The position numbers were made by a program, and so were the translations under genes. Positions 1,598 through 41,395 of a stretch of 64,000 nucleotides of DNA are shown piece after piece. Each line of letters opens with the position of its first letter. Position 1 is the stretch's first letter. The notes below the pieces were generated by a model. The model made no database searches. It saw nothing but the letters and a program-made list of their open reading frames with translations, and was not told the origin of the DNA. Source of the DNA: Rhodocyclaceae bacterium (lineage in GTDB: Bacteria; Pseudomonadota; Gammaproteobacteria; Burkholderiales; Rhodocyclaceae); NCBI GenBank assembly GCA_016791145.1, contig JAEUNJ010000217.1, forward strand, positions 1-64,000, written 5' to 3'.

Positions 1598-3114
<1,517 letters not shown>

Positions 3115-3156
3115 ACCACGCCAGGCGCGGATTTCCACGAACCCGGAGGTAGGTCA

Positions 3157-3606
3157 ATGGCGCTTTCCCGCATGGTCCTGGTGGCCCTCGCCCTGCTCCC
3201 GCTGTCGGCGGCGGCCCAGATGTACCAATGGAAGGACGCCGAGGGCCGGACCCATTATTCCGATCGCCCCCCGACCGGCAACGTCCCTTCCCGGACCATC
3301 CGGGAGGCACCCTCCCTCACCGGCGATCCCGGCGGGGCCCGCAAGGGGCTGGCCACCCAGAACATGGATTTCCGCAAGCGCCAGGGGGACAAGGGCGCCG
3401 CCGATGAGAAGGCGGAGAAGGGCAAGCAGGACGCCGAGGAGAAGGCCCGCAACTGCGAGCAGGCGAGGACCCACATGCGCAACCTGGAGTCCGGGCAGCG
3501 CATGGTGGCCACCGACGAGAAGGGCCAGCAGTCCATCCTGGACGACGCGGCCCGCGAGCGCGAGAAGGAATCGGCCCAGAAGGCCATCGACGCCTGGTGC
3601 AAGTAG
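3157..3606 (+). CDS. DUF4124-domain periplasmic protein
   Basis: A 149-residue exported protein. A signal peptide (MALSRMVLVALALLPLSAAAQ) is followed directly by the DUF4124 signature MYQWKDAEGRTHYSDRPP. The rest is a highly charged helical tail rich in Lys and Glu (about residues 80-149), probably coiled coil. The start at 3157 is preferred over an upstream in-frame ATG because GGAGGT at 3145-3150 is correctly spaced and the signal peptide then begins the protein. It is divergent from guaB, a placement common in betaproteobacteria. The molecular role is unknown; DUF4124 is a small beta-rich periplasmic domain. Confidence 0.85.
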   Translation: MALSRMVLVALALLPLSAAAQMYQWKDAEGRTHYSDRPPTGNVPSRTIREAPSLTGDPGGARKGLATQNMDFRKRQGDKGAADEKAEKGKQDAEEKARNCEQARTHMRNLESGQRMVATDEKGQQSILDDAAREREKESAQKAIDAWCK

Positions 3607-3653
3607 CCCGGTGAGGGCAGCGTCGCGCCGCTGACGGCGCGCGACACCTGCGG

Positions 3654-3971
3654 CTATTCGTCGGCCGCGCCGCCGCCCTTCTTCATCACCTTGCCCTCCG
3701 CGGCCCGCTGCTTGCGGACCTCCTTCGGGTCGGCGATCAGGGGCCGGTAGATTTCCACCCGGTCCCGCTCGCGCAGCGCCGTATCGGGCCGGGACAGCTT
3801 GCCGAAGATTCCGAACTTCCCCTTGGCCAGGTCGATTTCGGGGTACTTGGCGGCGAGTCCCGAGGCTTCCAGGGCCGCCTGGAGGGTGCTGCCCGGCGGC
3901 AACTGGAGGCGGACGACCTCCTGCCGCTCCGGCCGGGCATACACCACCTCAACCGCGATCTTCTCTGCCAT
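3654..3971 (-). CDS. rnfH: RnfH/RatB family ubiquitin-fold protein (UPF0125)
   Basis: A 105-residue cytoplasmic protein of the RnfH family. It shows the beta-grasp pattern [24 protein letters not shown] at the start and the conserved GIFGKLSRPDTALRERDRVEIYRPL in the second half, ending in a short basic tail. It overlaps the preceding ratA gene by 23 bases, so the two are co-transcribed and probably translationally coupled. The biochemical function is unsettled. The family name comes from linkage to rnf operons, which is not the case here. Confidence 0.88.
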   Translation of the reverse strand: MAEKIAVEVVYARPERQEVVRLQLPPGSTLQAALEASGLAAKYPEIDLAKGKFGIFGKLSRPDTALRERDRVEIYRPLIADPKEVRKQRAAEGKVMKKGGGAADE

Positions 3972-4395
3972 AGACGTGCGCCGCCCTTTTCACGAAGGAT
4001 TCCACGAAGGTATTGGCGATCTGGTTGAACACCGGCCCCAGCGCCTTTTCCAGCACCCGGCCCGCGAACTCGTACTGGAGCCGGAACTCGATCTTGCACG
4101 CCTTCTCGCCCAGCGGCCGGAACCGCCAGCCCCCTTCCAGGCGCCGGAAGGGCCCTTCCACGAGCCGGATGTCCATCCAGACCGGGATCTCCTTCTCGTT
4201 GCGTGTCGCAAATTCCGCCTGTATTCCCTTGTACTTGATGCGCAGGGCCGCCGCCGTCACGTGGTCGGTGCGTTCCAGCAGGCGCGTGCCACCGCACCAG
4301 GGCAGGAATTCCGGGTAGTGCTCCACCCCGTCCACCAGGGCGAACATCTCCGACGGCGTCCTCTCGATGAGGACGGATTTCTCGACTAAGGCCAT
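3949..4395 (-). CDS. ratA: RatA/Coq10-type START-domain protein
   Basis: A 148-residue START/SRPBCC-fold protein. The N-terminal [33 protein letters not shown] is the Coq10/RatA signature, and the C-terminal helix ([22 protein letters not shown]) closes the lipid-binding cup. Coq10 homologues bind ubiquinone; the E. coli member was also reported to block 70S assembly, hence the toxin name. The position between smpB (divergent) and rnfH is conserved in proteobacteria and argues for a housekeeping role rather than a mobile toxin-antitoxin pair. Confidence 0.9.
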
Positions 4396-13882: not shown

Positions 13883-15145
<1,263 letters not shown>

Positions 15146-15277
15146 CGCGGGTATCCGCGCGCTGGAGGCGCCAGCGCCGCCGACCGCTCCCGTCGCCATC
15201 GCATCCGCCTCATCGCCCTAAGACACCGAACGTGGCCCCGGCCTCCCGGGGCACGCTGCGCAGTCGATGGGCGAGAA

Positions 15278-17179
15278 TCACCCGGCCCCTGCGTCGGCCG
15301 GCGCCAACAGGTAGCGGTCGAGCGCATCGTGCAGGCATTCCGTGGTGACCGGCTTCGCCAGGAGTCCGTCCATGCCCGCATCCAGGCAGCGCTGCCGGGC
15401 TTCCTCGAAGGCATTCGCGGTCAAAGCCAGGATGGGGACGCGACCGCCGACCGGCAGACTGCGGATCGCCGCCGCCGCGTCCAGGCCGTTCATCTGGGGC
15501 ATCTGCAGGTCCATCAGGACGAGTGCATAGCCGTGGCCGCGGGCGAGATCCACCGCCTCCAGGCCGTTCGAGGCCACGTCCACCACGAGTCCCGCCTCCT
15601 CGAGCAGCGTCCGCGAGACTTCCTGGTTGCTGGGTTCATCTTCGACGAGGAGGACCCGCGCACCGCGCCACCGCTCCGACCGGGAGGGCCGGGGGACGCT
15701 GGCGTTCCCACCGCGTTCCAAGGGACGGTCTGGATACCCGAACCGTGCGGTGAACCAGAATGTGCTACCGGCGCCGGGCGTGCTCTCCACGCCGATTTCG
15801 CCGCCCATCATGTCGACGAGGCGCTTGCTGATGGCCAGCCCCAGTCCCGTGCCACCGTAGCGCCGCGTCATGGAGTTGTCCGCCTGCTCGAAGGCAGCGA
15901 ACAGGCGCCCGCGATCTTCCGCGGCGATCCCGATCCCCGTATCGGCCACTTCGAAGCGGAAAACCACCTCGGACGACCCCGCGTTGGCCCGGACGACCGA
16001 GAGGCGCACCGATCCCGAATCCGTGAATTTCACCGCGTTGCCCACCAGGTTCACGAGGATCTGGCGTAGCCGCAGGGGATCGCCCTCCAGGGGCATGCGG
16101 CGGATCTCCGGTGCCGCCTCGATGGAGAGGATGAGTCCCTTTTCGGCGGCTTTGTGGTCAAACAGGCTGTGCAGGTCTTCCAGCACAGACCCCAGGTGGA
16201 AGTCGATGCGCTCCAGACGCAGCCGGTCGGCCTCGATTTTCGAGATGTCCAGGATGTCGTTGATCACCTCGAGCAGGTGCCGCGACGCCTGCAATGCCGT
16301 CGTCAGGAAATGGCGCTGCCTTTCGTCCGTGGCGCGGCGCAGGGCGAGGTCGGTCATCCCCATGATGGCGTTCATGGGCGTGCGCAATTCGTGGCTCATG
16401 TTGGCGAGGAAGACGCTCTTGGCCCGATTGGCATTCTCGAGTTCCGCCGTGCGTATCCTCACGCGGTCCTCGAGGCCCTCGTTCACCCGGCGCAATTCGT
16501 CCAGGGCCGCGGCCAGTTCCGCGCCTGCCGCATCGAAGGCCCAGCGCAGCGATTCCACTTCATCCAGGCCGACGGGAGGCCCCGCCGTCGCGGGACCGCG
16601 GCCTGACGCCGGCGCCAGCGTGCGGACCCGCGCGGCCAGGTCTTCGAGACGACGCGTCACCAGTCGGCGGAAGGCGTAGAACATGAATATCGCGACCAGG
16701 AAGGTCTTCAGTCCGTTGCTGACAAGGATCGATGCGGCATGCATCAGGACGCGCCGGTTGATCCCGTCCAGGCCGGCGCTCACCTCCAGGATGCCGATCT
16801 CGGCATCCCCGCCGCGGACTTCATGGCGCAACGAATACGTCCGCACCAGCAGTTCGCCCGACGTCCGTTTCCCGGCCGTCCATCGCCGGTCCCCTTCTGC
16901 CGTCCGCACGTCGGCACGCTCGATCTGCGGCAGGCGCACGAGGGCTTCGATGGCGGAGCGGATCTGCTTTTCGTCGAAAGCCCAGACGCTGCCCGCAATA
17001 TTGGGCGAATAAATCGCCACCTGGTCCAGTTGCCGGTCCAGGTCGTCGCGCAACTCCCGGTACTCCGCGAACAACTGGATCGCGGTAAGGACCAGGGTGA
17101 TCACCGAACTGAACGCTACGGTCAGGACGATCATCCGGCGGCCTATCCGGTTCCCTCCCGACATCGTCGCCGCCCTCAT
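15278..17179 (-). CDS. Hybrid sensor histidine kinase with receiver domain
   Basis: Membrane kinase of 633 residues. TM1 is near residues 12-32 and TM2 near 142-162, bracketing a periplasmic sensor of about 110 residues. A linker and coiled coil follow, then HisKA with the histidine in [18 protein letters not shown], HATPase_c ([41 protein letters not shown]) and a C-terminal receiver with [21 protein letters not shown] and LLAKPVT. ATG 17179 was chosen over an in-frame TTG at 17206. It lies directly downstream of a binding-protein gene, which probably supplies the ligand-bound sensor partner. No separate output regulator is adjacent. Confidence 0.9.
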
Positions 17180-29227: not shown

Positions 29228-31150
29228 ATGCGCGCCGCCATCCTCCTCCCCCTCCTCGCCCTCTGCGCCCTGGAGGCTCTCGCCGCCGCCCCGCGCGGCG
29301 CCCGGGATCCCGCCTACGTCAGCGATGCCGAATGCGCCCGCTGCCACCGGGAGGCGGCCCAAGCCTGGCGCGACTCCCACCACGCCCGGTCCATGCAGGA
29401 GGCCACGCCGGCCACCGTGCGCGGCGACTTCGCCGGCCTGGCGCTGCGCGAGGGCGCCGACACGGTGCGCCTCTTCCGGCGCGGCAAGGGTTTCTACGCC
29501 CGGGCCCGCGATGCCGGTGGGCGGATGCGCGACCACCGGGTCCGCTACACCTTCGGCGTCGAGCCCCTGCAGCAATACCTGGTCGACGCCCCGGGCGGCC
29601 GGCTGCAGGCCCTGACCGCGGCCTGGGACACGGGCCGCCGGCGCTGGTTCAGCCTCGACGCGACCGGGGCCGTTCCCGGCGACGCCCTGCACTGGAGCGG
29701 GCGCTACCGCAACTGGAACCTGATGTGCGCCGAATGCCACTCGACGGGAGTGCGCAAGGGCTACGACCCGGCGAAGGACCGCTACCGCAGCACCTGGACC
29801 GCCATCAACGTGGGCTGCCAGGCCTGCCACGGTCCGGGCCGGGCCCATGCGGCGGCGGCCCGCCGCGGCCGCCCCACTCCCATGCCCGTGGACTACTCCG
29901 GCGGAGACCCGGACCGGCAGATCGACCAGTGCGCCCGCTGCCACTCGGTGCGCAGCCGGCTCACGGACCGCGACGACCCGGCCGCGCCCTTCCTCGACCG
30001 CTACCGGCCGGAGACCCTGCGCCCCGGCCTCTACCACGCCGACGGGCAGCAGGACGGGGAAGTGTTCGAGGTGGGGTCCTTCCGCCAGTCCCGGATGCAT
30101 CAGGCGGGCGTGCGCTGCACGGACTGCCACGACCCGCACGGGGGCAAGCTGCGGCGGCCCGGTGACGCCACCTGCACCGCCTGCCACGCCACCGTCGGCG
30201 ACCCGCGCTTCCCGACCGCCGCGGGACGCCCCTACGACGGGCCCGAGCACCATTTCCACGCCCCCGGCGGCCCCGGCAGCCGCTGCGTGGATTGCCACAT
30301 GCCGAGCCGTGACTACATGGTCGTGCACCCCCGCCGCGACCATGCCATCCGGATTCCCCGGCCCGACCTGGCGGCGCGGACCGGGACCCCGGATGCCTGC
30401 GCCGCCTGCCACGCGGACCGGGGCAGCGCCTGGGCGGCGGACTTCCTGGCGGCCCGCCGGCGGGCGGCGGGCGAACCGCCGCCCGGCCGCCACCACGGGG
30501 AGGCCTTCGCCGCCGCACGGCTGGGCGGGCGGGGGGCCGCGCCGCCGCTGGCCGCCCTCGCCCGGGACCGGGCCGTGCCGGCCATCCTGCGGGCCACCGC
30601 CGCCGAGACCCTGGGGCAGATGGGCGCCGCCGTCCCCGACGCCGCGCTGGCCGATCCCGACGGCGAGGTCCGCGCCGCGGCCGCCGGGAATGCGTCGCCG
30701 GTCCGCCAGGGCGCCCTGCTCGCGGCGCTGCTGGGCGACCCCCTGCGCGCCGTGCGCATCGCCGCCGCGCGCAGCCTCGCGGCCGCACCCGGCGCGCTGC
30801 CGCAGGCCAGCCGGAATGCCTACGCCCGCGCCCTGGACGAATACCGGGCGGCCCAGGGCGCCATGGCCGACGCGCCCGCGGCCCGCCTGAGCCTGGGCCT
30901 GCTGGAGGAGGACCTGGGGCGCCCCGCCGGCGCCGAAGCGCACTATCGGGCCGCCCTGGGCATGGACCGCCACCTGGTCCCGGCACGCCTCGCCCTGGGC
31001 GAACGGCTGGCGGCGCGCGGCGCCCTGGACGAGGCCGAGGCGCTGCTGCGGGAGGGATTGTCCCTGGGGGCGGACGAAGACGGCCTTCGCCAGGCCCTGG
31101 CGGCCCTCCGGACCGGGCGGCTGCACGGGCCGACATCGCCGGACCGGTAG
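29228..31150 (+). CDS. Octaheme c-type cytochrome with HEAT and TPR repeats
   Basis: A 640-residue periplasmic protein. A signal peptide (AAILLPLLALCALEALAAA) precedes eight CXXCH motifs in the first 400 residues: CARCH, CAECH, CQACH, CARCH, CTDCH, CTACH, CVDCH and CAACH. Segments such as SDAECARCHREAAQAWRDSHH resemble the cytochrome c554/multiheme family. Then come HEAT-like helices (ATAAETLGQMGAAVPDAALADPDGEVRAAAAG) and TPR units (ARLSLGLLEEDLGRPAGAEAHYRAALGMDRHL) at about 540-635. Heme domains with HEAT/TPR tails are usually annotated as uncharacterised redox proteins that dock to a partner. It lies 7.6 kb from the large cytochrome cluster. Confidence 0.9.
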   Translation: MRAAILLPLLALCALEALAAAPRGARDPAYVSDAECARCHREAAQAWRDSHHARSMQEATPATVRGDFAGLALREGADTVRLFRRGKGFYARARDAGGRMRDHRVRYTFGVEPLQQYLVDAPGGRLQALTAAWDTGRRRWFSLDATGAVPGDALHWSGRYRNWNLMCAECHSTGVRKGYDPAKDRYRSTWTAINVGCQACHGPGRAHAAAARRGRPTPMPVDYSGGDPDRQIDQCARCHSVRSRLTDRDDPAAPFLDRYRPETLRPGLYHADGQQDGEVFEVGSFRQSRMHQAGVRCTDCHDPHGGKLRRPGDATCTACHATVGDPRFPTAAGRPYDGPEHHFHAPGGPGSRCVDCHMPSRDYMVVHPRRDHAIRIPRPDLAARTGTPDACAACHADRGSAWAADFLAARRRAAGEPPPGRHHGEAFAAARLGGRGAAPPLAALARDRAVPAILRATAAETLGQMGAAVPDAALADPDGEVRAAAAGNASPVRQGALLAALLGDPLRAVRIAAARSLAAAPGALPQASRNAYARALDEYRAAQGAMADAPAARLSLGLLEEDLGRPAGAEAHYRAALGMDRHLVPARLALGERLAARGALDEAEALLREGLSLGADEDGLRQALAALRTGRLHGPTSPDR

Positions 31151-33887: not shown

Positions 33888-34325
33888 ATGCGCCTGAGCA
33901 CCTTTACGGATTACAGCCTGCGGGTCCTGATCTACCTCGGCCTCCAGGGCGAGCGCCTGTCCACCATCGCGGAAATCGCCGAGCGGTTCGGCATCTCCCA
34001 GGCGCACCTGATGAAGGTGGTGCACGGGCTCGCCAGGAGCGGTTACGTGAGGACCGTCCGGGGCAAGGGGGGCGGCATGGAACTGGCCCTGGCGCCCCGG
34101 GACATCCGCCTGGGGCAGGTCATCCGCTCCACCGAGGCCGACTTCGACCTGGTCGAATGCTTCGACGACACGTCGGCCTGCCGCATCCAGTCCGCCTGCG
34201 CCCTGAAGGCCATCCTGGAGGAAGGCCTGGAGGCCATGTTCGAGACCTTCGACCGATACACCCTGGAAGACCTCCTCAAGAAGCCGAAGGCGCTCCTGCG
34301 CGCCATCACGGTTCGCGCCGCCTGA
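33888..34325 (+). CDS. nsrR: Rrf2-family regulator, NsrR-like
   Basis: A 145-residue winged-helix regulator. MRLSTFTDYSLRVLIYLGLQ opens the Rrf2 fold, and ISQAHLMKVVHGLARSGYVRTVRGKGGGMELA is the recognition region. Three cysteines (C91, C98, C104 in VECFDDTSACRIQSAC) match the position of the NsrR iron-sulfur ligands, though the first spacing is slightly longer than in E. coli. NsrR senses nitric oxide and represses detoxification genes. The divergent ccoG-hemerythrin-PAS operon is the likely target. Assignment to NsrR rather than another Rrf2 regulator is an inference from context. Confidence 0.85.
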   Translation: MRLSTFTDYSLRVLIYLGLQGERLSTIAEIAERFGISQAHLMKVVHGLARSGYVRTVRGKGGGMELALAPRDIRLGQVIRSTEADFDLVECFDDTSACRIQSACALKAILEEGLEAMFETFDRYTLEDLLKKPKALLRAITVRAA

Positions 34326-34867
34326 AGGCACCGGGCGCCTCGGCGCCCGTCGGCCGCGCCATCGATCGACGACGCGCACCGGCGGCCAGAGCCACGACAA
34401 GGCCGGATGCCGGGCCTCGGGGCCCCGGATCCCGATCCATGCCGAGATCCGCCGCAGGTAACACCGGAACGCCGGCGGCGCGGCCTCAGGCGCGAAGGGA
34501 ATGAACCGGCAGGGGCCGGCCCGGCAGGCTGCCAAGGGTGTGCCCCGGACAACGCGGCGTCGGCGCAGACGACCCGAACAGGCCACCGGCGCGTCAGGAA
34601 ATCCGGAACGGCAGAATGGGAAGCGGCCCCCACGATCCCGATCGCATGGGTGCGGTGGCGCGCCATGGGGCTGCCTGGAATGCCCGAACGCCCCCTTGCC
34701 GGGGTATCGGCGGCGCCGCTTCGCTGCAGGGCACCATCCGCCCCAAGACCATTTCATAGTCATGGGCAATAACGCGACTTCATTTGACGAGGGTCAATTC
34801 CCACATCACGCTCCGGCGCAGAATAGCAATTCTCATATCATGCCGGCCGGCAGGCAGGGGGGACCCG
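34326..34867. other. 542-base non-coding region after nsrR
   Basis: No convincing gene on either strand. A GC-rich hairpin with arms CGGGCGCC/GGCGCCCG at 34332-34349 follows the nsrR stop and may end its transcript, although no T-run follows. The last 120 bases (about 34750-34867) are AT-richer and contain TTGACG near 34786 plus AT-rich segments, so the promoter of the kinase gene probably lies there. No consensus -10 at the right spacing was found. Confidence 0.5.
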
Positions 34868-36970
34868 ATGCTCGGTTTCGACTTGGGCAAGTACCGGACG
34901 ATGGTCGTCTCGATTGCCCTTTTCCTGGTTCTGGACCTCGGCGTGCTGATCCTGAACTTCGTGATCTCCAGCGAGATCGACAAGGACGCCGTCAATATCA
35001 ACCTCGCCGGCCGCCAGCGCATGCTCTCGCAACGCATGGCCAAGACGGCATTGCAGATCGAGGCGCGGAACGCCCAGGGACAGCCCTCGGAAAAGGAGGC
35101 GAAGGAACTGGCCCAGGCCCACGCCACCTTCGACGGCACGCTGAACGCCTTCATCGCCGGCGGCAACACCCTGAGCGGCGCCGGCAAGGACATCCACGTC
35201 GAACGCATCGATGACGCCCATGCGCAGGCCATCCTCGCCGAGGCGAAGGGCCTGTGGACGCCCTTCAGCACTGCCGTTCGCGGCCTCGGCGACAAGGGTG
35301 CGCCGTCCCCCGAGGCTGCGGCGGGGATCGCGCGCCAGGCCGAGGCCGTGAATCTGAGCCTCCTCAAGCTGATGAACGACCTCACCACGCGCTGCGAACA
35401 GTTGTCGTCGGACAAGGCCACCACGCTGCGCATGGTCCAGGTAAGCGGCATCACGCTGGCGACCATCAACTTCCTGATCATCCTGTTCCACTTCCTGCGC
35501 CACCTGCGCGAAAGCGACCGGCTGGTGGAAAAAGCCAGGCGGGAGACGGACAACATCCTGCAGACCACCCAGGAAGGCCTCTTCCTGCTCGACGACAAGT
35601 TCGCGATGGGTACCCAGCACTCGAAGGCCCTGGCCGGCATCATCGGCACCGACCGGATCGCGGAGCAGGACTTCCTTGCCATCCTGCGGCCGATGGTGAC
35701 CCAGAAGACCCTCGACACGGCAAAGGAATACATCGAGTTGCTGTTCCAGCCCGAGATCAAGGAAAAGCTGGTCGCCAGCCTCAACCCCTTGAATCACGTG
35801 GAAATCCACCAGGCCCAGGGCGCCGGCGAGATGAGTACGCGGTATCTGCAGTTCGGTTTCAACCGGGTGCGCGAGGAAGGCCGCATCACCCACCTCCTGG
35901 TGACGGCGAACGACATCACGCGCCGCGTCAAGCTGGAACAGGAGTTGAAGGCGACGGAGGAGCGCGCCAAGGGACAGATGGGCATGCTGGTGGAGATCCT
36001 GCAGGTCGATCCCTCGGACATGCACCGCTTCCTGCGCGCGGCGAACGAAGGCCTGGGGCACATCAACAACCACCTCATGGAACAAGGCGGCGGCAAGGCG
36101 GAACAGAAGATCAACGCCATCTACCGGATCACCCATCGCCTCAAGGGCGATGCCGGCGCACTGGGGTTGTCGATGCTCGCCACGCCCTTCCACGAACTGG
36201 AGGAGGTGCTCGATGGCCTGCGCGGCCGGCCGAACGTGACCGGCGAGGAGTTCCTGCCCATCACGGTGCACCTCAAGGCCTTGTTCGAGCAGCTCGAGAC
36301 GGTCGGCAGCGCGGTCACCCGCATCGCCCAGATGCGCGGCGTGGTCACCGTCGAGCCGCCGCGGCCCCAGATCGACCCCGCCGAGGCCGTGCCGCGCGTG
36401 GTGAGCCAGTGGCAGGCCTTCACGCGTCAGATCGCCGACCGCCAGCAGCGCCAAGTCCAGTTGAGCTACAGCGGCATCGACCTGCAGAAACTGGCCCCGG
36501 TGCTGCAGGAAAGCATCAACAGCATGGTCACCCAGTTCGTGCGCAACGCCGTGGTTCATGGCATCGAACCGCCCGCCGAGCGCCGCGCCCGCGGCAAGCC
36601 GGAATCCGGCCGCATCGCGGTCTATGTGTCGCAGCGCGAAGACGGCGGCGCGGACCTCAGTTTCCGCGACGACGGTAAGGGGCTTTCGATCGCCAAGCTG
36701 CGCGAGGCCGCGGTACGGGCGGGCAAGCTGACCGCGGAAGAGGCGGCGACACTGGACCATCGCCGCATCGTGGCCCTGATCTTCGAACCGGGCGTATCGA
36801 CCCGGGAAGCGGTCGATGAGGATGCCGGCCGCGGCGCCGGCCTGGACGCGGTGAAGGACATGATTGCGCGCCTCGGCGGCACGGTACGCATCGGCAGCAC
36901 GCCAGGCGAGTATTGCCATTTCCGCATCAGCCTGCCGGCGCAGCCGGAGCAGCTTGCGGCCGCCGCCTGA
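34868..36970 (+). CDS. Membrane PilJ-PAS-Hpt-CheA-like histidine kinase
   Basis: A 700-residue one-protein sensor kinase. TM1 (MVVSIALFLVLDLGVLILNFVI) and TM2 near 196-216 flank a PilJ-type periplasmic domain with INLAGRQRMLSQRMAKTALQIEA. A PAS-like domain (LQTTQEGLFLLDDKFAMGTQH ... LLVTANDITRR) and coiled coil follow. An Hpt domain has the histidine in ITHRLKGDAGALGLSML. The C-terminal CheA-type HATPase shows FVRNAVVHGIEPPAERRARGKPE and DDGKGLS, but there is no CheW-like regulatory domain. ATG 34868 is preceded by GGGGGGA. It is followed by cheY and cheX genes and should phosphorylate the adjacent CheY. Confidence 0.85.
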   Translation: MLGFDLGKYRTMVVSIALFLVLDLGVLILNFVISSEIDKDAVNINLAGRQRMLSQRMAKTALQIEARNAQGQPSEKEAKELAQAHATFDGTLNAFIAGGNTLSGAGKDIHVERIDDAHAQAILAEAKGLWTPFSTAVRGLGDKGAPSPEAAAGIARQAEAVNLSLLKLMNDLTTRCEQLSSDKATTLRMVQVSGITLATINFLIILFHFLRHLRESDRLVEKARRETDNILQTTQEGLFLLDDKFAMGTQHSKALAGIIGTDRIAEQDFLAILRPMVTQKTLDTAKEYIELLFQPEIKEKLVASLNPLNHVEIHQAQGAGEMSTRYLQFGFNRVREEGRITHLLVTANDITRRVKLEQELKATEERAKGQMGMLVEILQVDPSDMHRFLRAANEGLGHINNHLMEQGGGKAEQKINAIYRITHRLKGDAGALGLSMLATPFHELEEVLDGLRGRPNVTGEEFLPITVHLKALFEQLETVGSAVTRIAQMRGVVTVEPPRPQIDPAEAVPRVVSQWQAFTRQIADRQQRQVQLSYSGIDLQKLAPVLQESINSMVTQFVRNAVVHGIEPPAERRARGKPESGRIAVYVSQREDGGADLSFRDDGKGLSIAKLREAAVRAGKLTAEEAATLDHRRIVALIFEPGVSTREAVDEDAGRGAGLDAVKDMIARLGGTVRIGSTPGEYCHFRISLPAQPEQLAAAA

Positions 36971-36987
36971 ACCAACGGACATCGACC

Positions 36988-37368
36988 ATGACCGCCAGAA
37001 AACTGCTCATCGCCGACGACTCGAACATCGTGCGCAGCAAGATCGCCCGCGCCCTGGGTCAGCACGGCCTGCACATCGTCGGCCTCGCCGCCAACGGGCG
37101 CGAGGCCCTCGAGCTGTTCAAGGCGACCCGGCCCGACGTATTGACCATGGACCTGACCATGCCGGAAATGGACGGCATCGAATGCATTCGCGCGATCCGG
37201 GCGCTCGACGCGAAGGTGCGCATCCTGGTCGTCTCGGCGCTGTCGGACAAGGGAACCGCGATCCAGGCCCTGAAGCAGGGCGCGCAGGGCTTCCTCGACA
37301 AACCCTTCACCGAGGCCGAGCTTTCCGATGCCATCGGCGAACTGCTGGAGGAAACGGGAAATGGATGA
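36988..37368 (+). CDS. CheY-like single-domain response regulator
   Basis: A 126-residue receiver with no output domain. It shows the acidic pair in LLIADDSNIVRSKIARAL, the phosphoacceptor in DVLTMDLTMPEMDGIECIRAI, the Ser switch in VVSALSDKGTAIQA and the lysine in GFLDKPFTEAEL. Fifteen of its residues before the stop overlap nothing, but the last eight bases overlap the cheX start. The phosphate likely comes from the upstream membrane kinase and is removed by CheX. Confidence 0.93.
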   Translation: MTARKLLIADDSNIVRSKIARALGQHGLHIVGLAANGREALELFKATRPDVLTMDLTMPEMDGIECIRAIRALDAKVRILVVSALSDKGTAIQALKQGAQGFLDKPFTEAELSDAIGELLEETGNG

Positions 37369-37813
37369 GACGCAACTCAAGGTCTTCGTCGGCATCGTCC
37401 AGCGCTATTTCGAGAAGATCACCGGCAAGGCCGCCGAGGTCGGCACGCCTTTCCTGGGCCAACCGAAGGAGCTGCCGATCCACGACTTCACCGGCGTGAT
37501 CGGCATCTCGGGCAGCCAACGCGGTTGCGTGTATTTCAGCGCGCCGGCGCAGATGCTGAAGGAATTGCTGCTGCGCGCGGGGGAAACGGACCTGTCAGAG
37601 GACAACTTCGCCGACCTGACGGGCGAGATTGCCAACACCATCTCGGGTAACGCCCGCCGCGAGTTCGGCAGCGAGTTCCTGATCTCCGTGCCGGTCGTGG
37701 TGCGCGGAAGCGGGCAACACATCACCGTGCCGAAGGATGTCAGGGCCTACGTGATCCCGCTGCGCTGGCACAAGATCGCCGCCTCCCTGGTGGTCAGCGT
37801 CGCCAAGGCCTGA
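37361..37813 (+). CDS. cheX: CheX-type CheY-phosphate phosphatase
   Basis: A 150-residue CheX/CheC-family protein. The catalytic ExxN is in ADLTGEIANTISGNARREFG, and the fold ends with VPVVVRGSGQHITVPKDVRAYVIPLRWHKIAASLVVSVAKA. ATG 37361 overlaps the cheY stop by eight bases. In the Thermotoga and Borrelia systems CheX dephosphorylates CheY. The three genes form a closed kinase-regulator-phosphatase unit without CheW, CheR, CheB or a separate receptor in the window. Confidence 0.9.
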   Translation: MDETQLKVFVGIVQRYFEKITGKAAEVGTPFLGQPKELPIHDFTGVIGISGSQRGCVYFSAPAQMLKELLLRAGETDLSEDNFADLTGEIANTISGNARREFGSEFLISVPVVVRGSGQHITVPKDVRAYVIPLRWHKIAASLVVSVAKA

Positions 37814-38804: not shown

Positions 38805-39821
38805 TCAGCGGGCCGCCGCTCCCGTCCGGGCAGCCATCCTGGGCGGCAGCGGATGGAAGGCCCGGGCCACGTAGTCGACGATGGCGTCGATCTCGGCGGG
38901 TTTCAGCACGTCCCGCCAGGCCGGCATGGAGGTGTCCGGCAGGCCCTCGGCAATGGTCCGGGCCAGCCGCTCCCGGGTCATGCCGACCATGAAGCCCGCG
39001 TCCCGCAGGTCGCGCGGATGCGGTTCCAGGAAGGCCCCGATCCAGTTCCGGCCGCTGCCGTCGGCGCCGTGGCAGAAGGCGCAGTTGGCCTGGAAGAGCC
39101 GCTCGCCGCGCTTCTCGGCCGCCGAGAGGCCGCGCAGGCGGGGCACCACGTCGTGCCTGGCGTAGGGGCTGGCGCCCGCCAGGGCGTCGACGCCGGGCGG
39201 GGGATTGGCGAGGGAGAAGCCGTTGCGCGGGTAGGACAGCGGCCGCGCGTCCCAGGCGACGCCATCGTCGCCGGGCGCACCCCGGTCGTGGCAGCTCACG
39301 CAGGCGGAGAGATAGAGCCGCTTGCCCTCGGCCTGGGACGGGTCCAGGGATTCCCATTCCCGGGAAAGCGGAATCTCGCCGGTTGCAAAGGGATAGGCGG
39401 CCCGGTAGCGCTCGTGGCCCGGCCAGCCGTTCTCGGGGGTGTGGTAGCGCGTATTGACTGCCTTGTCGCGGACGAAGGCCTCGTGGACAAAGCGGGCCAC
39501 GTCCTCGATCTCCCGGGCGCTGATGACCCGGGCGAAGGACTTCATGGCCGTGCCCGGCCGGCCCTGGCGCAGGGTCTCCCGGATGTGCGCGGGCGTGAGG
39601 CGGGCCGGATCGGCCCGGGTGAAGTCGGTGGGCGGTGGGCTGACGAAGGTGGCCGCCAGGGTCTTGGCGTCGCCGGAGTAGCCGTGGCAGTAGTAGCAGC
39701 GGAAGTTGTAGACCGCGCGGCCGGCCGCCAGGGGGTCCGGGGGGGCTGCATGGACTGCGCCGGCGACCGCCAGGGCGCCCAGCCAGGCGGCGGCCGGCGG
39801 GCGCCGGCGGCGGGCCGCCAC
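38805..39821 (-). CDS. Triheme c-type cytochrome (cytochrome c class I domains)
   Basis: A 338-residue exported cytochrome with three CXXCH motifs: CYYCH, CVSCH and CAFCH. Each belongs to a monoheme class I domain; the axial Met candidates include LPDTSMPAWRDVL and RQGRPGTAMKSFARVI. The signal region is PPAAAWLGALAVAGAVHAAP. The start is GTG at 39821, two bases after the stop of the upstream paralogue, so the two are coupled. It is likely periplasmic, shuttling electrons between membrane complexes and terminal multiheme proteins. Confidence 0.85.
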   Translation of the reverse strand: MAARRRRPPAAAWLGALAVAGAVHAAPPDPLAAGRAVYNFRCYYCHGYSGDAKTLAATFVSPPPTDFTRADPARLTPAHIRETLRQGRPGTAMKSFARVISAREIEDVARFVHEAFVRDKAVNTRYHTPENGWPGHERYRAAYPFATGEIPLSREWESLDPSQAEGKRLYLSACVSCHDRGAPGDDGVAWDARPLSYPRNGFSLANPPPGVDALAGASPYARHDVVPRLRGLSAAEKRGERLFQANCAFCHGADGSGRNWIGAFLEPHPRDLRDAGFMVGMTRERLARTIAEGLPDTSMPAWRDVLKPAEIDAIVDYVARAFHPLPPRMAARTGAAAR

Positions 39822-39823
39822 GG

Positions 39824-40855
39824 TCAGCCCCGGCCGGACCGGATGTAGCGGCGGAACACGAACTCGGAGACGTCGGCGATCTCCTGGTCGGTGAGGACCT
39901 TGCTCCAGGCCGGCATCTCGGTGCCCAGCTTGCCCATGGCGGTGGCGGCATAGATGACGGGACGGTTGAACGTGCTGCGCGACTTGAGTTCGACGAAGTT
40001 GCGCGGCTTCGGATTGATGAAGTAGGCCCGCGGCCCCTTGCCGTCGCCCTTGGCGCCGTGGCAGGTGGCGCAGTTGGCCATGTAGAAGCGCTCGCCGCGG
40101 GCGGCGTCCCCCTTCAGGCCGTTGGGCATCGGCAGGCTCATGTCGGACCGGGCGACGGCCGGGGCCGGATCGCTCTGCTTGCCGCCGTGGGCCTTGACGC
40201 CGGAGATGCTGGTCTCGGGAACCATCAGGGCGGCGCGCACGTAATCCACGATGGCCTCGATGTCGGCGGGCGGGAGCCGTTCGGCGAAGCCGGCCATGGC
40301 CGTGCCGGGACGTCCCCGGGTCACCGATTCGACCATCCGCTCGCGGGACAGCTCGGCGCGGGACTGGGGCGAGGACAGGTCGCGGGGCGGGGTCGGGCCG
40401 CCCACCGGGTGGTTGGAACCCTGGCCCCGCTCGCCATGGCATGCGACGCAGTTGTGGGCGTACAGGGAACGTCCCTTCTGCAGGCGCGGGTCGAGGGCGA
40501 CGATCATGAAGGTGTCGCGGATGTAATCGACGACGGCCTCGATCTCCTTCTCGTTCAGCTGGGTCTGCCATCCCACCATGGCCGTGCCGGCCTTGCCGTG
40601 GGCCACGATGGTGATCATGGCCTCGCGGCCCAGGTTCGCGGCGGTGCTGAAATCCCGGGGCGGCGGGTTCAGGCTGGCCCGCGCCCGGCTGCGCCCGTCG
40701 CCCCGGTCGCCGTGGCAGACCGAGCAGTAGTTGTGGTACAGGACGTCGGGCTTGATCTGGCCGCCCTTCAGGGGCCGCTCCCCAGCCAGGGCCGCGGCCC
40801 CCCCGGCAAGGATGCCCAGGGTCAGGATCAGTCCGGTCAGCGAAAGGCGGGGCAT
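39824..40855 (-). CDS. Triheme c-type cytochrome (cytochrome c class I domains)
   Basis: A 343-residue exported protein, paralogous to the next gene in the operon. A signal peptide (MPRLSLTGLILTLGILAGGAAALA) precedes three CXXCH motifs (CSVCHGDRGDG, CVACHGERGQG, CATCHGAKGDG), each followed by an axial methionine in KAGTAMVGWQ, RPGTAMAGFAE or KLGTEMPAWSK. The repeated layout shows three tandem class I cytochrome domains. It is divergent from the c5-type cytochrome at 41012; the 156-base gap carries a sigma-54-like promoter and a dyad. Confidence 0.9.
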   Translation of the reverse strand: MPRLSLTGLILTLGILAGGAAALAGERPLKGGQIKPDVLYHNYCSVCHGDRGDGRSRARASLNPPPRDFSTAANLGREAMITIVAHGKAGTAMVGWQTQLNEKEIEAVVDYIRDTFMIVALDPRLQKGRSLYAHNCVACHGERGQGSNHPVGGPTPPRDLSSPQSRAELSRERMVESVTRGRPGTAMAGFAERLPPADIEAIVDYVRAALMVPETSISGVKAHGGKQSDPAPAVARSDMSLPMPNGLKGDAARGERFYMANCATCHGAKGDGKGPRAYFINPKPRNFVELKSRSTFNRPVIYAATAMGKLGTEMPAWSKVLTDQEIADVSEFVFRRYIRSGRG

Positions 40856-41011: not shown

Positions 41012-41395
41012 ATGGTGTGGAACGCGGCATTTGAGTTTCCCGCATGGAGGCGCTGGGCGATGGCCGTCCTGGGCATGCTGCTGCTCGCCGGCCTCCCGCT
41101 GCTCGGCCTCGCCCCGGCATGGACCGCCGCCAGCGGCGGGTCGGACCTGGGCCGGGAAACCTACGTGCAGACCTGCGCCCTGTGCCATGCGAAAGGCACG
41201 GCCAACGCCCCGCGCCTGGGAAACCGGGAGGAGTGGCAGGCCCGCATTGCCCGCGGCCGGCCGGAACTGCTCCGGTCGGTGCTGAAGGGCAAGGGCGCCA
41301 TGCCTCCCAAGGGCGGGAATGCCTCCCTGTCCGACCGGCAGGCCGCCGCCGCCCTGGATTACCTGCTGTCCCAGTTCGAGGAAGCCCATCGATGA
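41012..41395 (+). CDS. Monoheme cytochrome c5-type protein
   Basis: A 127-residue exported cytochrome c5. A hydrophobic N-terminus (WAMAVLGMLLLAGLPLLGLAPAW) precedes one heme in YVQTCALCHAKGTANAPRLGNREEW, and the axial Met region is KGKGAMPPKGGNASLSDRQAAAALDYLL. It closely resembles the N-terminal domain of the fusion cytochrome at 50849-51889. AAGGA lies seven bases before the ATG. A terminator-like hairpin follows 60 bases after the stop. Confidence 0.88.
   Translation: MVWNAAFEFPAWRRWAMAVLGMLLLAGLPLLGLAPAWTAASGGSDLGRETYVQTCALCHAKGTANAPRLGNREEWQARIARGRPELLRSVLKGKGAMPPKGGNASLSDRQAAAALDYLLSQFEEAHR

Follow-up and report, generated by a model that had tools for sequence, protein, structure and literature searches.

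CheA is not known to work other than together with receptors and CheW in arrays. A survey of 13,673 CheAs by Berry et al. 2023 reports, in the part of its text that is available, CheW in 100% of them and four core domains, and it recognizes a CheA by HATPase_c together with CheW (PMC10782961), so that CheW-free relatives fall outside it. Nitrate receptors are described from another side. Martin-Mora et al. 2019 gave the structure of McpN with nitrate and R61 as key to recognition, and the accessible sections of the paper define the N-box of nitrate-binding PilJ domains as [IVL]-[ND]-x-A-G-x-Q-R-M-L-[ST]-Q and treat McpN as a chemoreceptor feeding a Che array (PMC6381276). The NarX/NarQ sensors have G-x-x-R as conserved nitrate motif, according to the available part of a 2021 review (PMC8199190). 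Here we analyzed a three-gene locus (the triad) in a stretch of 64,000 nucleotides (the window) from a Rhodocyclaceae bacterium (the host; assembly GCA_016791145.1, contig JAEUNJ010000217.1), in which parts of these systems are joined in a different way.

Architecture of the kinase

The first gene (34868..36970, + strand) encodes a CheA-like membrane sensor kinase of 700 aa with the order TM1-PilJ-TM2-PAS-helix-Hpt-P4 ATPase, as read from the translation, Pfam and AlphaFold, the TM helices being assigned by eye from the sequence and the model helices. Pfam placed PilJ at residues 34-102 (E 1.5e-13), Hpt at 387-477 (7e-9) and HATPase_c at 549-692 (2.1e-12). The periplasmic helical PilJ sensor was delimited at residues ~35-190 (34970..35437, +) by Pfam, VIA-align and a profile match to McpN. 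The Hpt domain covers residues 382-492 (36011..36343, +; Pfam and conservation) with the phospho-acceptor His423 at 36134-36136, and His423 and Lys426 are kept in 81/81 aligned kinases. The CheA-type P4 ATPase covers residues 510-691 (36395..36940, +) and was matched to CheA by phmmer (E 2.6e-29) and to the CheA P4 by VIA-align (Z 21.5).

Pfam reported no PAS domain in the kinase. The AlphaFold model of the kinase was made from 50 of the 81 sequences (mean pLDDT 84.4), and a second model of residues 1-381, with 37 of the 81 sequences in the sensor alignment, placed the sensor near PilJ, McpN and NarQ and residues 237-349 near PAS domains. The PAS-fold domain (residues 237-349; 35576..35914, +) was accepted because the best Foldseek matches of this alpha/beta domain were PAS domains (FixL E 5e-6; LOV proteins).

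The original prediction had described a membrane protein fusing PilJ, PAS, Hpt and a CheA-like ATPase without CheW, and Pfam together with AlphaFold and Foldseek agrees with this fusion. The domain search was negative for CheW as well. Neither CheW nor H-kinase_dim (a Pfam model described as insensitive in the available text of PMC10782961) matched the window kinase at E<=1 or any of 50 family members at E<=0.01, the same 50 carrying HATPase_c (50), Hpt (50) and PilJ (49). A hidden CheW domain was dropped on these results; moreover, the P4 domain ends ~9 residues before the C-terminus, which leaves no room for one. P2 and P3 domains were not found, the Hpt-P4 spacer of the model being ~17 residues long and mostly of low confidence, and Pfam gave no match to HisKA-type DHp (at E<=1), HAMP or GAF, with Hpt in place of DHp.

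Hpt and P4 are thus common to CheA and the triad kinase, whereas P2, P3 and P5/CheW are absent from the latter, which has its own sensor, TM helices and PAS ahead. When the four-domain definition was applied, P1 Hpt and P4 were found and P3 and P5 were not, and therefore the triad kinase is not a CheA by the definition given in the available part of that survey (PMC10782961), though it is built on CheA catalytic parts. With NarX/NarQ it has in common the periplasmic helical sensor with G-x-x-R and the membrane kinase, but they use a DHp transmitter and the DNA-binding NarL, and the triad uses Hpt-P4 and CheY/CheX; because of this transmitter, and despite the agreement in the sensor motif, it is not a NarX/NarQ kinase. 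McpN has the PilJ sensor and the N-box in common with it, but in the accessible account (PMC6381276) McpN is the receptor of a Che array, and in the triad sensor and kinase are one protein.

A tree of P4 domains, with 26 of the 81 kinases and array-type CheAs from related genomes, put the 26 triad kinases on one side of a branch (SH-aLRT 97) and 22 array-type CheA domains plus two distant relatives on the other. CheW-less sensor-Hpt-HATPase kinases of Burkholderia and Ideonella (L126, L127) have a similar Hpt-P4 layout with ~29% identity over roughly 300 aa; unlike the triad kinases, they have their P4 across the main branch and no CheX match with the triad queries.

Partner genes and conservation of the triad

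The kinase is followed after 17 bp by a single-domain receiver CheY of 126 aa (36988..37368, +) with Asp55 at 37150-37152, for which Pfam gave Response_reg at E 2.6e-30 and the nearest PDB chains include the Thermotoga CheY (E 1e-25). The start of the third gene overlaps the CheY stop by 8 bp; it encodes a CheX phosphatase of 150 aa (37361..37813, +) with Pfam CheX at E 2.7e-20, the only Pfam CheX match of the host genome, and with the E89-x-x-N92 motif, which we take to be catalytic. Asp55 and Lys105 of CheY and Glu89 and Asn92 of CheX are kept in 78/78 rows of alignments from which rows without a match or of <=100 aa were excluded. A single-domain CheY and then CheX were expected behind the kinase from the original prediction, and both are there. 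The three genes probably form one operon and would be co-transcribed. Likeness to CheB within the triad is limited to the receiver part.

The order kinase-CheY-CheX was searched in three samples. With tblastn it was found for 7/7 full-length homologues, in six of 60 related genomes. It was kept at 77/80 loci among the best 80 of 274 confirmed ones, from one genome each of 84,980 species scanned, a selection enriched for close kin; loci L064 and L124 were judged the same as those in genomes G011 and G016, and the two counts overlap accordingly. Among the three exceptions, the contigs of L100 and L104 stop shortly behind the kinase, and L119 has CheY without a CheX match, the loss of CheX there being either real or a matter of detection. 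The locus L102 has a gap of ~1.3 kb. In a sample of the class (274 genomes, drawn regardless of the triad), nine including the host matched the kinase at E<=1e-80, a frequency of roughly 3%, and CheY and CheX matches adjoin 11 of 12 kinase matches other than the window's own. Within this sample, L156 is without CheY/CheX matches and L153 is cut at a contig end.

The triad is a real, conserved unit, and chance neighbours are ruled out by its conservation in these samples. Two findings had been named beforehand as counting against the original prediction, a CheW domain in the kinase and a triad not conserved as a unit; both were looked for and neither turned up. Among 450 matching plasmid records, none covered 80% of the kinase at a single place. 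No published description of the triad was found by title or abstract start in open-licence PMC text, subscription papers lying outside that collection, and the triad is apparently a widespread, undescribed signalling unit.

Probable nitrate sensing

The sensor of the window kinase contains the sequence INLAGRQRMLSQ at residues 44-55 (34997..35032, +), which fits the published N-box exactly and has R51 as the nitrate-contact arginine, and G48 with R51 makes up the G-x-x-R nitrate motif. The best match of the sensor profile in the PDB was the nitrate receptor McpN (E 1.5e-6), with the N-boxes aligned. The fold matched PilJ 7zjr (VIA-align Z 15.1), McpN 6gcv (12.9) and NarQ 5jef (12.7), values near the chance level for unrelated helical bundles; assignment of the sensor from the fold alone was dropped for this reason, and the assignment leans on the sequence match. 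The top fold match, PilJ, did not bind nitrate according to the available text of PMC6381276.

The strict N-box is present in only 17/81 kinases and the contact arginine R51 in 61/81. R51 is lost in 20/80 relatives, and among these L052, L060 and L063 differ in their N-terminal part; because of this the family, as judged from its sequences, senses more than one thing.

The genes around the triad were examined at the relatives with tblastn under our own thresholds, the neighbour calls coming from a home-made caller. Genes of the nas or nap type lie within ~7 kb in 23/60 R51-bearing relatives versus 0/20 without R51 (Fisher p 4e-4, a naive value that ignores kinship); a link corrected for phylogeny was rejected, as only 3 independent pairs lay on supported branches (sign test p = 1). 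In many Burkholderiales, nasT and nrtABC-type genes immediately precede the triad and narK or nirB follows it; the bins L106, L118 and L120, all three betaproteobacterial, have nap genes just downstream of it. Beside the window triad no nitrate-metabolism gene was identified among the neighbours scanned; elsewhere in the host genome, NapA was matched at 72% (against the NapA of L118) and a NasA-like sequence at 55%. The kinase tree, which excludes L102, has the nitrate-linked loci in one half and the window kinase in the other, and the nitrate claim for the window copy hence relies on two findings, the N-box and the profile match to McpN. From these two, the window kinase probably senses nitrate; the NsrR-like regulator gene and the FNR-type box upstream of it and the NapA and NasA-like matches of the host lend support as context. 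Nitrate as the likely ligand is the point that the original prediction lacked.

Proposed mechanism and alternative readings

We read the triad as a CheW-free CheA-type two-component pathway which senses nitrate (or a close oxyanion) and whose output target is encoded elsewhere, with a probability of roughly 60%. The membrane receptor-kinase, presumably dimeric, would sense the ligand in the periplasm, where the interface of the PilJ dimer would form a site of McpN/NarX type, and the signal would pass from TM2 through PAS and the helix to Hpt and the CheA-type P4. P4 would phosphorylate His423 of the Hpt domain and the phosphoryl group would then go to Asp55 of the partner CheY, a transfer expected from established family knowledge, and the same kind of knowledge suggests that CheX would remove it from CheY-P. 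CheY-P may act by protein contact on its target.

The original prediction had spoken of a chemosensory pathway collapsed into three genes. The absence of array parts stood up, since Pfam found no MCP signalling domain, CheW, CheR/CheB or methylation gene among the three proteins, which sets the unit apart from the array-based chemosensory class (F, Tfp, ACF), but the words collapsed and chemosensory did not. The host keeps seven CheW-domain matches elsewhere, one of them within a CheA-like frame of 1901 aa (contig C148), and because it keeps such CheW-containing systems the triad is not a collapsed chemotaxis system. Against taxis, besides the separate branch of the P4 domains, stands the distribution of FliM. 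It is present in the host and was matched in 33/48 carrier genomes searched, and 15/48 gave no match, including the isolates Moraxella lacunata, Ramlibacter sp. Leaf400 and Caenimonas sedimenti, while incomplete assemblies could account for some of the absences among MAGs. Because of these 15 carriers, flagellar taxis is not the common output of the triad, and a flagellar-only output was dropped.

Taken literally, the earlier reading amounts to a minimal nitrate-taxis pathway in which CheY-P binds the flagellar switch and the arrays are bypassed. Thermotoga and Borrelia use CheY-CheX pairs in chemotaxis, a CheX with ExxN being paired there with a single-domain CheY as in the triad, and this agrees with it as does FliM in the host and in two thirds of the carriers (33/48); the triad unit differs from those systems in being without MCP, CheW, CheR and CheB. 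In view of the FliM-less carriers and the nitrate-gene setting in 23/80 relatives we consider taxis quite improbable. In each of the 15 carriers without FliM a PilT-family match exceeded the cut-off, and 14/15 gave CheW matches, many of these within large frames the size of ChpA, so that the common target is more probably type IV pili or the regulation of nitrate metabolism than just the flagellar motor. The triad could accordingly be an auxiliary input to type IV pili, with CheY-P joining PilG/PilH on the pilus motors beside a Pil-Chp array. We find this doubtful, as the carrier G107 has PilT and no CheW match, and relatives that lack the triad commonly have ChpA-sized CheA-like frames as well; pilus output argued from co-occurrence was set aside as weak, PilT and CheW being genes too common for such an argument.

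Regulation of nitrate assimilation or respiration is another candidate, by action of CheY-P on NasT, another ANTAR antiterminator or a transporter. It would suit the Burkholderiales triads that lie between nrtABC-type genes and narK/nirB, have nasT upstream and are close to a gene for a PilJ-ANTAR protein, and ANTAR matches are present in the host, but no such gene was identified beside the window triad and the Paracoccus NasT is controlled by binding of NasS in the available text of PMC3795266, and we hold it to be rather unlikely. The remaining alternative concerns the input. The window sensor might read nitrite, another oxyanion, redox state or surface contact, the N-box being inherited and not decisive, and the drift of the sensor across the family with R51 lost in a quarter of relatives (20/80) would allow this, as would the sulfate-type binding-protein genes downstream of the triad in part of the window's own clade. 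The exact N-box with its contact arginine, and the nitrate genes adjoining 23/60 R51 relatives, make a different signal an unlikely one in our judgement, and nitrate or a close oxyanion is kept as the ligand of the proposed pathway.

Value of the triad

The triad may stand for a widespread, undescribed class, in which CheA-type kinases free of CheW and fused to their receptors work with a CheY and a CheX of their own and without arrays, many of them as nitrate sensors; this generalization is put forward tentatively, its odds being clearly below even. If true, the catalytic core of CheA is able to function on its own as a receptor kinase, and the triad may have kept, or evolved anew, an intermediate stage linking ordinary two-component kinases with array chemosensing. 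It is a three-gene system for in vitro tests of CheA-type catalysis and direct ligand control, with nitrate as a definite ligand to try, R51A as the mutation and a phosphatase of its own. Next to the NarX/NarQ-type architectures gathered in the available part of the 2021 review (PMC8199190), it would be a further likely input for nitrate.

Upstream region

A box of FNR/ANR/DNR type, TTGACGAGGGTCAA, was found by motif search 70 bp before the kinase start codon (34784..34797, no strand assigned). It is the single match in the 64-kb window to TTGAYNNNNRTCAA, a motif presumably of FNR type, and 0.01 matches were expected in shuffles. Exact boxes of this type occur in 3/76 upstream regions (the window, L045 and L119) against 0.12 expected from mononucleotide shuffles, and the one of L045 lies at -106, off the aligned position relative to the window; a conserved FNR box was dropped on these grounds. 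The box of the window suggests that the triad may be expressed at low oxygen. Further upstream and outside the triad lies a gene for an NsrR-like Rrf2 regulator (33891..34325, +), whose best NCBIfam equivalog is NsrR at 121.7 bits, below the cut-off of 182.

Apparent sensor exchange and copy number of the triad

In three close relatives of the window kinase (L052, L060 and L063) the N-terminal sensor part gave no match to that of the window kinase, while the cytoplasmic kinase part was retained along with CheY and CheX, so that the sensor appears to have been swapped. Genome G194 carries two kinase copies (L151 and L155) on the same contig with about 2.5 kb between them, and CheY and CheX matches were found beside each copy. 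A distant sensor-Hpt-HATPase kinase of Burkholderia cenocepacia (L127, 3765-6152, plus strand) is followed downstream by putative CheX-like and receiver genes, as judged by eye, and may possibly represent with them a second class of such units.

Genes surrounding the triad

The window triad is flanked by several c-type cytochrome genes (29228-31150, 38805-40855 and 41060-41395), one of which has multiheme-type domain matches, and together they are possibly an electron-transport island. At locus L044 the triad is adjoined by a gene (2609-4297, minus strand) that by eye is chemoreceptor-like and has a heme-like CxxCH motif. In part of the window clade (L042, L043 and L047-L051) a sulfate-type binding protein gene lies after the triad, downstream of CheX, its identity being confirmed by NCBIfam in L051; several of these loci also have a putative PstS-like gene there, recognized by eye.

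PilJ domains in other regulators

Within the nas cluster of locus L086, a PilJ-ANTAR protein (14558-15829, minus strand) combines a receiver-like part, an ANTAR domain and two PilJ stretches at its C-terminal end, one of which contains the exact published nitrate-binding motif, or N-box (LNLAGRQRMLSQ). This protein is likely a cytosolic nitrate-sensing antiterminator. The host genome encodes on contig C89 (L129, 1057-2562, minus strand) a protein in which two PilJ domains with the N-box-like motifs VAGRQRMLSQR and NLAGRERMLSQR come after a predicted Crp/Fnr-like regulator part, the latter labelled by eye rather than through a family search.
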